64,000 nucleotides of DNA, from contig CAIUPP010000023.1 of NCBI GenBank assembly GCA_903901045.1, positions 62,001 through 126,000 of the forward strand, read 5' to 3'. Position 1 is the stretch's first letter. Each line of letters begins with the position of its first letter. This document shows, piece after piece, positions 2,946-51,962 of the stretch. The DNA is from an uncultured Planctomycetota bacterium. GTDB taxonomy: Bacteria > Planctomycetota > Brocadiia > CAIUPP01. The translations under genes and the position numbers were made by a program. Below the pieces are notes generated by a model. It saw only the letters and a program-made list of their open reading frames with translations. It searched no databases and was not told where the DNA came from.

Positions 2946-3001
2946 GGAAAAGGGGTCAGGCATCTTTTCGCACCGGCGAAAAGCAGCCTGGCCCCTTTTC
3001 C
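2946..3001. repeat. 56-bp REP-like palindrome, copy 1
   Basis: GGAAAAGGGGTCAGGCATCTTTTCGCACCGGCGAAAAGCAGCCTGGCCCCTTTTCC; about 26-bp arms; 52/56 identical to 20482..20537. Confidence 0.85.
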
Positions 3002-8597: not shown

Positions 8598-8642
8598 GTT
8601 CTGATTACTTAATGAACGCCATACAAGCAGCTTATCACGCCG

Positions 8643-8670
8643 GCAGGGGCAAGGCATTCCCTGCCCCTGC
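8643..8670. repeat. GGGGCAAGGCATGCCTTGCCCC-family palindrome, diverged copy
   Basis: GCAGGGGCAAGGCATTCCCTGCCCCTGC upstream of the gspF-like gene; same core as 14824 and 44133. Confidence 0.75.
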
Positions 8671-14107: not shown

Positions 14108-15823
14108 ATGCCATCCCATGCTTCCCCGGCGCTGGAAACGCTCTCTTCGCGCGGGGATCGCCGTCCGCTGCTGCTGATCGGCTGCGCGCTGGTGCTCTGC
14201 GCCTGGGGTTTGATGTGGGGGCTGCCTTATTCGTTCGACCCCGCGCAGGACAGCGTAGTGCCGATCGGGCAACTGGCGGAGCGCGGGTTCGGCTTCGAGC
14301 AAATCACGGCGTACCGCTATCCCCCCTTCCATTTCCTATTGCTGCGCGCGGCGTTCCTCCCTGCGCGCGGGCTGCTTCACCTCGCGCCGGACCTCGCCGA
14401 TAACCCGAAGGTCAGCGCCACCGCATTTATCCTCACCGCCCGCCTGGTCAGCCTGCTGATGGCGCTGGGGACGGTCTGGTTCCTCTATCGTATCGGCCGG
14501 CGGCTGTGGGAGGAGTGGGCGGGGCTCGCGGCGGGCGCGGCGCTCATCCTCTCCCCGGTGACGCTCTACTATGCAAAAAACGCGAACCTCGACGGTCCGA
14601 TGATCTTCTGGCTCGCCGCCGCGCTGCTGCTGTACGTGCGCGTGCTTCAGGAGCAGCGGACTCTGGATTACCTTTGGCTTGGGGTCCTCTGCGCGCTGGC
14701 GGTCTGCACGAAGGACCAGGCGTACGGCTTCATTCTGCTGATGCCGCTGCCGATCTGCATTGCGCTGTGGCGGCGGCGCAAACGGCAATTGCGCAGCGAG
14801 GCGGGAAGCACAACCCGATGCAAGGGCAAGGCATGCCTTGCCCCTACGGAGGCGGACGAACCATACATCTCGACCACGCCCGCATGGAAGAAACTGCTGC
14901 TGGGGTTTCTCGGCTTCGCCGTTCCGTTTGTCCTCATCCACAACATCCTGTTCGATCCGCAGAATTTCCAGCGGCACGTGGAGACGGTCCTCGGACCGGG
15001 GTCGGCCCCGTGGCGCGAATGCGCGCGCGGATCGATGGGGCAGCTTCGGCTGCTGACGGAGAGCCTCCTGCGGCTGATGGATGCCTGGACGCTGCCGGGG
15101 TTGCTGCTGGCAGGGTTCGGGCTGGCGCTCGCGCTGCGCCCGGGAGCAGGCCGGTTCGAGCGCGCGGCGCTGCTGGTTCCGGCCGTCTCGTATCAACTCT
15201 CTTTCCTCGCGCCGATCGGATACGTCTATCCGCGCTTCATGCTCCCAACGATGCTCACTCTCGCGCCGTTCGCCGGATACGGCGCGCTCCGCCTCTGGCG
15301 GCGGTGGGGGAAACTCGGCCCCGTGCTCACCGTCGCGGCGCTGGCATGGATGGGGCTGGCGGGGCTTTCGGTGGATTACGTCATGGGTGAATCGCCGCGT
15401 TATGAAGCGCAGCGATGGCTGGAGGAGACCGTCCCGCAAGGGCCGTCGCTGCAAATCTACTACATCGGCGAACTGCACGACATGCCGCGCTTCAACGCGC
15501 CGCTGGATGCCGTCCAGATCGAGGCGACCCCCGAGGCGCTGGCGAAACTTCCTTCCCCGTCGAGCCTGCTGGTGCTATCGCTGGATGCCGGCCAGCCCGC
15601 GCTGGGACCGGGATCCTGGCGGTTGGCTTCCATCCTCAGGCGGCATCTGGGAGAATGGGGATTATCGCCGGAGCGCCGGGCGGCTGACCCGTTCCACGAG
15701 CAGTTGCTCTCAGGGAAATTCGGATTCGTGGAAGTGAAGCGCTTCAGGTCGCCGGTGGCATCAGCCGTGCCGGAGGTGGCCGAGTCGGTGAACCGGACGA
15801 TCATCGTCATGCGCCGGCAATAA
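14108..15823 (+). CDS. Glycosyltransferase family 39/ArnT-like integral membrane protein
   Basis: Multiple TM segments; PYSFDPAQDSVV...AYRYPPFHFLLL; YYAKNANLDGPMIFWLAAALLLY. Confidence 0.75.
   Translation: MPSHASPALETLSSRGDRRPLLLIGCALVLCAWGLMWGLPYSFDPAQDSVVPIGQLAERGFGFEQITAYRYPPFHFLLLRAAFLPARGLLHLAPDLADNPKVSATAFILTARLVSLLMALGTVWFLYRIGRRLWEEWAGLAAGAALILSPVTLYYAKNANLDGPMIFWLAAALLLYVRVLQEQRTLDYLWLGVLCALAVCTKDQAYGFILLMPLPICIALWRRRKRQLRSEAGSTTRCKGKACLAPTEADEPYISTTPAWKKLLLGFLGFAVPFVLIHNILFDPQNFQRHVETVLGPGSAPWRECARGSMGQLRLLTESLLRLMDAWTLPGLLLAGFGLALALRPGAGRFERAALLVPAVSYQLSFLAPIGYVYPRFMLPTMLTLAPFAGYGALRLWRRWGKLGPVLTVAALAWMGLAGLSVDYVMGESPRYEAQRWLEETVPQGPSLQIYYIGELHDMPRFNAPLDAVQIEATPEALAKLPSPSSLLVLSLDAGQPALGPGSWRLASILRRHLGEWGLSPERRAADPFHEQLLSGKFGFVEVKRFRSPVASAVPEVAESVNRTIIVMRRQ
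14824..14843. repeat. GGGCAAGGCATGCCTTGCCC palindrome inside coding sequence
   Basis: Perfect 20-nt palindrome, in frame (CKGKACLAPT); same core as 44133..44154. Confidence 0.9.
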
Positions 15824-20481: not shown

Positions 20482-20537
20482 GGAAAAGGGGGCAGGCATC
20501 TTTTCGCGACGGCGAAAAGCAGCCTGACCCCTTTTCC
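20482..20537. repeat. 56-bp REP-like palindrome, copy 2
   Basis: GGAAAAGGGGGCAGGCATCTTTTCGCGACGGCGAAAAGCAGCCTGACCCCTTTTCC. Confidence 0.85.
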
Positions 20538-38818: not shown

Positions 38819-39720
38819 ACTCATTGATCCATCCCCTCCTGGCGCTGCTGCTGGCCCCCCTGCTGCTGGGGATCATCAACCGCACGAAGGCGCTCTTTGC
38901 GGGGCGCACGGGCCAGCCCTTGCTCCAGGCGTACTTCGACCTCGCGAAGCTCCTGCGCAAGGGGGCGGTGTACAGCGAGACGACGACGTGGGTCTTCCGC
39001 GCCGGGCCCATCGTGGGGGTGGCGGCGCCGGTGGTCGCTATCGCGCTGATCCCGTTCGGGGGAATCCCCGCGCTGCTGAATTTCCCGGGGGATTTGATTC
39101 TCTTCGCTTACCTGTTCGGGCTGATGCGCTTCATGACCGTGGCCGCGGCGCTGGACACCGGCTCCGCCTTCGAGGGGATGGGCGCCAGCCGCGAGGTGCA
39201 GTTCAGCGCCCTGGCCGAACCGGCGCTGCTGCTGGGGCTGGCCGCGCTCGCGCGGCTGACCGGCGACCTTTCGCTGAGCGGCATTCTCGGCTCGCTGACG
39301 CCCCAGGATTGGGCGCACGCCGCGCCCGCCCTCGCGCTGGTGACGGCGGGGCTGCTGGTGGTGTACCTGGCGGAGAATTCGCGCATTCCCGTGGACGATC
39401 CAAACACGCACCTGGAATTGACGATGATCCATGAGGTGATGGTGCTGGACCACGGCGGGCCGGATTTCGGGCTGATTCTCTACGGCGCGTCGCTGAAGCT
39501 CTGGGCGCTGGGAGCCATCCTCACCGGAGTGGTCCTCCCCTTCCACGATGAACGCCTCTGGCCGGGGATCGTGATCGCCCTCGGCGGCATGTTCGGCCTG
39601 GCGGTCTTCGTCGGCGTGGTGGAGTCCTCCATGGCGCGGCTGCGGCTGCTGCGCGTGCCGCAGTTGCTCGTGGCGGCGATGGTGCTTTCGGCGCTGGCGC
39701 TGGTGCTGCTGATGAGGTGA
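38815..39720 (+). CDS. Respiratory complex I subunit 1-like protein (HyfC/HycD/NuoH-like)
   Basis: AYFDLAKLLRKGAVYSETTTWVFRAGP; RIPVDDPNTHLELTMIHEVMVLDHGGPD; ATGA overlap. Confidence 0.9.
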   Translation: MNSLIHPLLALLLAPLLLGIINRTKALFAGRTGQPLLQAYFDLAKLLRKGAVYSETTTWVFRAGPIVGVAAPVVAIALIPFGGIPALLNFPGDLILFAYLFGLMRFMTVAAALDTGSAFEGMGASREVQFSALAEPALLLGLAALARLTGDLSLSGILGSLTPQDWAHAAPALALVTAGLLVVYLAENSRIPVDDPNTHLELTMIHEVMVLDHGGPDFGLILYGASLKLWALGAILTGVVLPFHDERLWPGIVIALGGMFGLAVFVGVVESSMARLRLLRVPQLLVAAMVLSALALVLLMR

Positions 39721-39721
39721 A

Positions 39722-39960
39722 CTGTGGGCGCAGCGTGCTGCGCCCCTGCGGGGGATGTCGCGGGCGAAAGTCCGCACGACGGAAACGACGGTCGCGGGCT
39801 GAAGCCCGCGCTACACACGGATGACGGAAACGAGGGCGCAGCGTGCTGCGCCCCTACGGCGGATGTCGCGGGCTAAAGCCCGCGCTACCCACGAATGACG
39901 GAAACGTGGGCGCAGCATGCTGCGCCCCTACGACGAAGACGCGGATTGAAGTCCGCGCTA
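39722..39960. repeat. Alternating array of two palindrome families between hyfC- and hyfE-like genes
   Basis: GGGCGCAGCRTGCTGCGCCCC at 39726-39746, 39834-39854, 39908-39928; CGCGGGCTgAAGCCCGCG-like at 39760-39775, 39793-39810, 39867-39884, 39940-39957; spacers GACGGAAACG. Confidence 0.9.
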
Positions 39961-39982
39961 CACGGTTCGCAACGAGGTGAGC

Positions 39983-43786: not shown

Positions 43787-44650
43787 ATGATTAAAGCTCT
43801 ATACGCGCGAATATTGCAGGGACACCGGACGGTCCGGTTCCCGAAGCAACCGCCCACGCTGCCGGAACGCTATCTCGGCCGGCCGGTGCTGAACCTTTCG
43901 GCCTGCGCGAAGGAGTGCCGCCGCTGCGTGGAGCTCTGCCCCTCCGGAGCGATGAAGGCGGATGCGCGCGGCGGGGTTCAGTTGGACTTGGGCCGCTGCA
44001 TTTTCTGCGGCGCCTGCTCCCGGGCCTGCCCCACCGGCGCGCTGAAGCACACCCGCGAGTACCGCATGGCCGTGCGCAAGCGCGATGAAATGATCCTGGG
44101 CAGGTGCTCCGGCGAGGCCGATTCCGTCTGTAGGGGCAAGGCATGCCTTGCCCCCGCAACGAGCATGGCGTCCGATCTCGCGGCGCAAGGGGACCTGCGC
44201 AGCCGGGAGTATCAGCTCGCGGAGGCGCTGGAGCGCAAGAGCCGCCGGCTGTTCGGGCGGTCGCTGAAGCTGCGGCAGGTGAGCGCGGGCGGCTGCAACG
44301 CCTGCGAGGCGGATAACAATGTGCTGACGACGGTGGTCTTCGACCTCGGGCGGTTCGGCATCCAGTTCGTCGCCTCCCCCCGTCATGCCGATGGGCTGCT
44401 CATCACCGGCACGGTGCCGCAGAATATGACCCTGGCGCTGAAGAAGACCTACGACGCCGTGCCCGCCCCCAAACTGGTGATCGCCGTCGGCGCGTGCGCC
44501 ATCAGCGGCGGACTGTACGCAGGGAACGCGGTCGCGGGAACGGGGGCAGACACGCACCTCCCGGTTGACCTCTATATCCCCGGCTGCCCGCCGCACCCGG
44601 TGACGATCCTCGACGGGTTGCTGCGGCTGCTGGGGCGGATTGAGGGGTAG
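43787..44650 (+). CDS. Fused 2x[4Fe-4S] ferredoxin (HyfH/NuoI-like) and 20-kDa (HyfI/NuoB-like) subunit
   Basis: CAKECRRCVELCPSGA, CIFCGACSRACPTGA, then GGCNACEADNNV, VGACAISGG, IPGCPPHPVTILDGLL. Confidence 0.88.
   Translation: MIKALYARILQGHRTVRFPKQPPTLPERYLGRPVLNLSACAKECRRCVELCPSGAMKADARGGVQLDLGRCIFCGACSRACPTGALKHTREYRMAVRKRDEMILGRCSGEADSVCRGKACLAPATSMASDLAAQGDLRSREYQLAEALERKSRRLFGRSLKLRQVSAGGCNACEADNNVLTTVVFDLGRFGIQFVASPRHADGLLITGTVPQNMTLALKKTYDAVPAPKLVIAVGACAISGGLYAGNAVAGTGADTHLPVDLYIPGCPPHPVTILDGLLRLLGRIEG
44133..44154. repeat. GGGGCAAGGCATGCCTTGCCCC palindrome inside coding sequence
   Basis: Perfect 22-nt palindrome between ferredoxin and NuoB domains; encodes CRGKACLAPA. Confidence 0.92.
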
Positions 44651-51776: not shown

Positions 51777-51962
51777 GGTTCCTTATTTGCGGTGAGAAAC
51801 GGAGAGCGCAAGCCATTCTTTGCCGGCAACACTGTGAGGCAATATAGACGGCCTTCTTCCAGGAGTCAATACGGGCCGTCCGATGCGGCGCAGCCGCCCT
51901 GGGGCGCAACTTCTTGACGTCCCCACAAGGGGGGAGTACAATCCGGGTTGGAGGTGATACGC

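Follow-up and report, generated by a model that had tools for sequence, protein, structure and literature searches.

GTAG-tagged hairpins in frame within core genes of an uncultured Planctomycetota bacterium

The repeat and its copies in the window

The window analysed here, a stretch of 64,000 nucleotides, holds a gene for a ferredoxin-NuoB fusion (Fd-NuoB) and one for a membrane glycosyltransferase, both carrying a short palindrome in frame (Table 1). A sequence-only reading had described this palindrome, a diverged copy upstream of a gspF-like gene and the peptides CRGKACLAPA (Fd-NuoB) and CKGKACLAPT (glycosyltransferase), all of which are present as claimed. The 22-nt palindrome GGGGCAAGGCATGCCTTGCCCC was confirmed at 44133–44154 and further matches were detected at 14823–14844 (1 mismatch) and 8646–8667 (2 mismatches), with a mean of 0.01 matches expected from 100 shuffles; a fourth match at 51808 is weak and at chance level. 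The limits of the repeat, however, had to be revised. The unit that stays invariant from copy to copy is 24 nt rather than 22, a GTAG head plus a 20-nt perfect palindrome (GTAGGGGCAAGGCATGCCTTGCCC; the palindrome after GTAG is GGGCAAGGCATGCCTTGCCC in an alignment of 90 copies), hereafter F1, and the second copy, given earlier as a 20-nt core at 14824–14843, has a perfect core of 16 nt. The copy near 8643 is probably intergenic, since the minus-strand gene likely begins at an ATG (~8598), with the copy upstream of this start.

Table 1. Position of hairpins, insertions and host genes in the window; REP assignments are probable.
Feature	Position	Strand	Basis
Decayed F1 copy upstream of gspF-like gene (GCAGGGGCAAGGCATTCCCTGCCC); probably intergenic	8642..8665	+	sequence match
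Host gene: PMT_2-type membrane glycosyltransferase, 571 aa	14108..15823	+	Pfam
33-aa lineage-specific insertion with REP in glycosyltransferase	14789..14887	+	gap in G001 orthologue
F1 REP on the strand opposite to its host gene, giving KGKACLAP	14824..14847	-	exact 24-nt match
F2-like hairpin, intergenic REP cluster	39722..39745	+	4 mismatches; repeat families D4/D7
F3 REP (GTAGCGCGGGCTTCAGCCCGCG)	39793..39814	-	exact
F3 REP	39867..39888	-	1 mismatch
F2 REP (GTAGGGGCGCAGCATGCTGCGCCC), F1 sister family	39908..39931	-	exact
F4-like REP	39940..39961	-	2 mismatches
Host gene: 2x4Fe-4S ferredoxin - NuoB (Oxidored_q6) fusion, 287 aa	43787..44650	+	Pfam
33-aa lineage-specific insertion with REP, ferredoxin/NuoB interdomain linker	~44102..44200 (edges uncertain by a few codons)	+	orthologues, pLDDT
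F1 REP (GTAG head and 20-nt palindrome), encoding RGKACLAP in frame	44130..44153	+	exact 24-nt match

An intergenic cluster of F2/F3/F4-type hairpins (families described below) spans 39719–39961, amid genes of a hydrogenase/complex-I-like region. A 56-nt palindromic repeat (GGAAAAGGGGTCAGGCATCTTTTCG...CGAAAAGCAGCCTGGCCCCTTTTCC) is also present in the window in two copies, 93% alike (2946–3001 and 20482–20537).

Copies across the genome and within genes

The 18-nt core of F1 has 96 copies in the genome and its reversed control none; 90 of the 96 were read as sequence stretches. The GTAG head is present in 83 of these 90 and the alignment has a sharp left edge. The tag is one-sided, since its mirror image CTAC is rare at the far end, with only four symmetric GTAG..CTAC units in the genome. 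Flanking sequences are unique; among the 77 copies whose flanks are non-redundant, only a TT directly before the unit and a YTGC directly after it are clearly favoured, less strongly than the unit itself. The nearest relative, a Planctomycetota MAG of the same family (G001), has no F1 copy, and three other genomes of the class carry the core as single copies. A search for a clean empty site among paralogous flanks returned only arrays and partly shared flanks, none of them clean. Copy number and lineage specificity suggest that F1 has been mobile. The genome is a draft metagenome assembly of 4.77 Mb (154 contigs, ~3% contamination), and one may ask if the repeat arose through faulty assembly or binning. 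However, copies are spread over dozens of contigs, including the longest, and host genes match their G001 orthologues over the full length, before and after the element, making such an artefact extremely improbable.

Some copies lie in larger repeated units. Three follow one another in a tandem repeat at intervals of exactly 177 nt (L050, G000:C44, at 150, 327 and 504). Those in L045, L049, L167, L186 and L191 have part of a longer flank in common, which contains CTTGACG and CATAATTA-like motifs; here F1 may have been taken up by a larger repeat.

Only 16–19 of the 90 F1 copies are coding, compared to 65–76% of random positions (codon-usage test), hence insertions into genes are strongly purged. 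Approximately 17 genes carry F1 in frame. By Pfam, the hosts include MnmA, an aminotransferase, a radical SAM protein, a ThiI-like protein, DUF2400, PriA, three PMT glycosyltransferases, OppC, an RluD-type pseudouridine synthase, MutY, IleS, AddB (two copies), a DinG-like helicase (two copies), a heptosyltransferase and the Fd-NuoB fusion. MutY, PriA, RluD and DinG contain hairpin pairs 28–83 nt apart. Copies of the sister family F2 were found inside MurD and LpxK and in the linker of MutL (identified from sequence).

Counting frames genome-wide revealed no preferred one. Among coding F1 copies, in both orientations, RGKACLAP and VGARHALP are about equally common; in the third sense frame the TAG of GTAG would be a stop codon. 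A preference for the same frame, as the two window copies had seemed to indicate, is therefore ruled out. Both do read RGKACLAP, but they lie in opposite orientations, and since GKACLAP and GARHALP are both used genome-wide, the shared peptide arose by coincidence from two open frames. These counts also bear on the idea that a RGKACLAP module with its cysteine was selected, for instance for metal binding or as a flexible segment, the DNA palindrome being a by-product. The identical peptide of the two window copies fits this, but coding copies divide about evenly between the two peptides in unrelated host proteins, the majority of copies lie outside genes, and F2 retains the hairpin yet encodes GAACCAP or GAQHAAP. 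We regard a selected peptide as very unlikely; the conserved entity is the hairpin, not the peptide.

Host genes compared with their orthologues

We compared 13 host genes with their counterparts in G001, which itself lacks F1. In all 13 the element is absent from the G001 orthologue and the source genome has an insertion at that point, of 12, 25, 23, 22, 28, 5, 49, 44, 22, 19, 22, 33 and 33 aa, the weakest case being PMT162 with 5 aa net. The proposed presence/absence pattern is seen in every gene compared, but not as a clean difference of 22–24 nt, with inserts ranging from 5 to 49 aa. The REP contributes eight residues (~10 with weak edges) to a mean insert of 26 aa.

In Fd-NuoB the insertion is 33 aa, again larger than the palindrome alone. 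Neither the insert nor the RGKACLAP peptide, whose presence at this site in repeat-free orthologues would have spoken against insertion, was found in any of 93 other orthologue sequences from several phyla (92 distinct, as L053 and L095 represent one gene). Residues 109–134 are the sole stretch with pLDDT < 50 in an AlphaFold2 model built with 31 orthologues, and the insert is predicted to be an unstructured linker joining two well-predicted domains. The earlier view that the palindrome entered in frame at places tolerant of insertion is supported by the 13 lineage-specific insertions and by the predicted disorder in Fd-NuoB.

As the inserts exceed the REP, the palindrome could be an eight-residue passenger in loops whose length was already hypervariable and which grew through local duplication, slippage or the like. 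The extra insert DNA is unique, and the RluD insert contains an imperfect local duplication (DEGKSAHAERKG / DEGKSVHTERRG), both in keeping with this explanation. However, insertions at the elements total 337 aa, against 50 aa in 14 events elsewhere in the same 13 proteins (5333 aligned residues), the Fd-NuoB linker varies little in length among the 93 orthologue sequences, and the main insertion coincides with every REP site. Loop expansion with the hairpin as passenger is therefore unlikely, although it keeps more weight than the other alternatives.

The remaining insert DNA was searched for its origin. Four host genes have a clear second REP copy; beyond these, decayed second REPs were not above control. 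The rest is unique and without hairpin excess, which rules out flanks made of repeated or hairpin-rich DNA, and a decayed F5 hairpin in the IleS insert is ruled out by its DNA sequence. Co-transfer of flanks or later growth of the loop are possible sources of the additional residues. In E. coli, TnpA-REP cleaves at CT both before and after the hairpin (PMC8266576).

Hairpin families, RAYT genes and the nature of the element

Several GTAG hairpin families coexist in the genome: F1, F2, F3/F4 (GTAGCGCGGGCTTCAGCCCGCG and relatives) and F5 (GTAGCGCGGGTTATCAAACCCGCG). F2 (GTAGGGGCGCAGCATGCTGCGCCC) is a sister family of comparable size; with ≤1 mismatch allowed, it has 53 matches on the forward strand and 67 on the reverse, a few of them counted on both. 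The stem triplets that distinguish F1 from F2 are compensated (AAG/CTT versus GCA/TGC), and the same framework occurs in other genomes of the class with the stems ACG/CGT and ACA/TGT. The two families alternate in arrays with a period of ~69 nt. Such alternation every 69 nt, within the same surrounding repeat, was observed in L164 (2027–2118 and 4658–4889) and L165 (1785–2015) (G000:C54), where the arrays start with two half-palindromes cut near ATGCC.

F1 has the features of GTAG-type REPs: it is a short dispersed palindrome with an unpaired GTAG at one end, mostly extragenic, and occurs in dimers and clusters. A one-sided GTAG beside a hairpin is the hallmark of REPs, which are recognised by RAYT (HUH) transposases (PMC3733652, PMC8266576). 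The GTAG head, the unique flanks, the F1/F2 arrays and RAYT genes with similar flanking hairpins led us to identify the repeat as a GTAG-type REP that has spread in this Planctomycetota lineage and landed in frame in genes, a reading to which we assign a probability of about 0.88.

Three RAYT genes in the source genome exceed the NCBIfam cut-off, and all three are adjoined by GTAG/GTGG hairpins of other families. F5 flanks the C29 gene on either side, F3 lies upstream of the C139 gene, and the C7 gene has related hairpins plus a decayed F1 ~350 nt away. None of the three has an intact F1 or F2 beside it, hence the F1 mover may have been lost, may be unassembled, or may be one of these three acting in trans. 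Adjacent to a RAYT gene is also the MutL gene (L213, 3219–5135, minus strand), in which two linker segments are F2-derived (VVGAQH... and RAQHAAPL).

GTAG REPs inside genes were already described in 2013 by Di Nocera et al., in the highest number in Opitutus terrae, itself of the PVC group, with repair, tRNA-synthetase and pseudouridine-synthase genes among the hosts (PMC3733652). The window repeat is therefore a further case of a known phenomenon. Shared features are a hairpin of 20–40 nt tagged by GTAG at one end, the presence of several families in one genome, the mostly intergenic position, dimers or clusters, in-gene copies and occurrence in the PVC group (PMC3733652). Neither the F1 stem sequence nor the host lineage was found in that text, and our insertions were, in addition, tested against orthologues. 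By gene lists, our hosts PriA, MutY, AddB, DinG, MutL, IleS, MnmA and RluD match the published repair and tRNA hosts strikingly.

The resemblance to Rickettsia palindromic elements (RPEs) suggested earlier holds in how the repeat works, as in both cases palindromes lie in frame in unrelated genes and encode extra protein segments. It does not extend to kinship: F1 is a GTAG-tagged REP in a RAYT-bearing genome, whereas RPE-4 and RPE-6 were assigned a CGTC head (PMC3733652), and its 24-nt unit (versus ~150 bp), mostly intergenic position and different phylum, with a Planctomycetota MAG as nearest relative, also set it apart. Membership of the RPEs is ruled out by the head, the unit length and this nearest relative, and RPEs are an analogue of F1, not its family. 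Compared with REPtron/REPIN systems, RAYT genes with flanking GTAG hairpins and the hairpin pairs within MutY, PriA, RluD and DinG are shared; the differences are that no RAYT for F1/F2 was found in the source genome and that a RAYT subfamily of related genomes has its own REP inside the gene. Classical MITEs are units of 70–300 bp with terminal inverted repeats and a target-site duplication. F1 does not fit this description, as its unit is 24 nt long and the 77 non-redundant copies have no conserved or shared flank beyond TT/YTGC.

The REP reading implies a sequence of events in which a RAYT would have recognised GTAG and the hairpin in single-stranded DNA and then pasted hairpin copies around the genome. 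Insertions that shifted the frame, placed the TAG of GTAG in frame or fell in structured parts would have been purged, and those in loops and linkers may have survived as neutral spacers.

The RAYT subfamily with an internal REP comprises eight genes (L293, L294, L298, L299, L301, L305, L308 and L309) from five genomes of family f6 in the same class (G060, G061, G024, G026 and G050), each gene holding a full in-frame GTAGGGGC...GCCCCTAC palindrome. The internal REP begins 11–19 codons past the start of the MPNHxH (HUH) motif. Six distinct stems were observed, fully complementary bar one mismatched pair in L293, and two reading frames are used. Related palindrome-free RAYTs (L285, L292 and L297) lack the extra residues. 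As L301 and L309 are near-identical and come from two genomes, there are ~7 independent cases. A matching stem (0–1 mismatch) adjoins five of the eight genes. No PDB relative of a palindrome-bearing RAYT was found by sequence. A partial literature search found no description of the internal REP or its peptides, and it is possibly new. We tentatively consider, with more doubt than belief, that the internal hairpin is functional, either because the RAYT binds its own gene or mRNA and so limits itself, or because the gene is a source copy which keeps REP and recogniser matched. A RAYT domain also lies within a very long open frame of G001 (L287, C209), where repeated VAQPPSAV / AEGGCAT segments are encoded by a different palindromic repeat (GGCACAGCCGCCCTCGGCTGTGC).

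These results provide a quantified case of selfish hairpins tolerated in core proteins, including IleS, MnmA, PriA, MutY, AddB and a ferredoxin-NuoB subunit, and independently repeat the published pattern that in-gene REPs are often found in repair and tRNA genes. As the compensated stem changes show, DNA structure is kept while the encoded peptides change. If the internal hairpin is functional, the host-gene insertions of the window would be fallout of a RAYT system with an internal REP. RAYT genes with a matching REP inside would allow a direct test of REP-transposase co-evolution.
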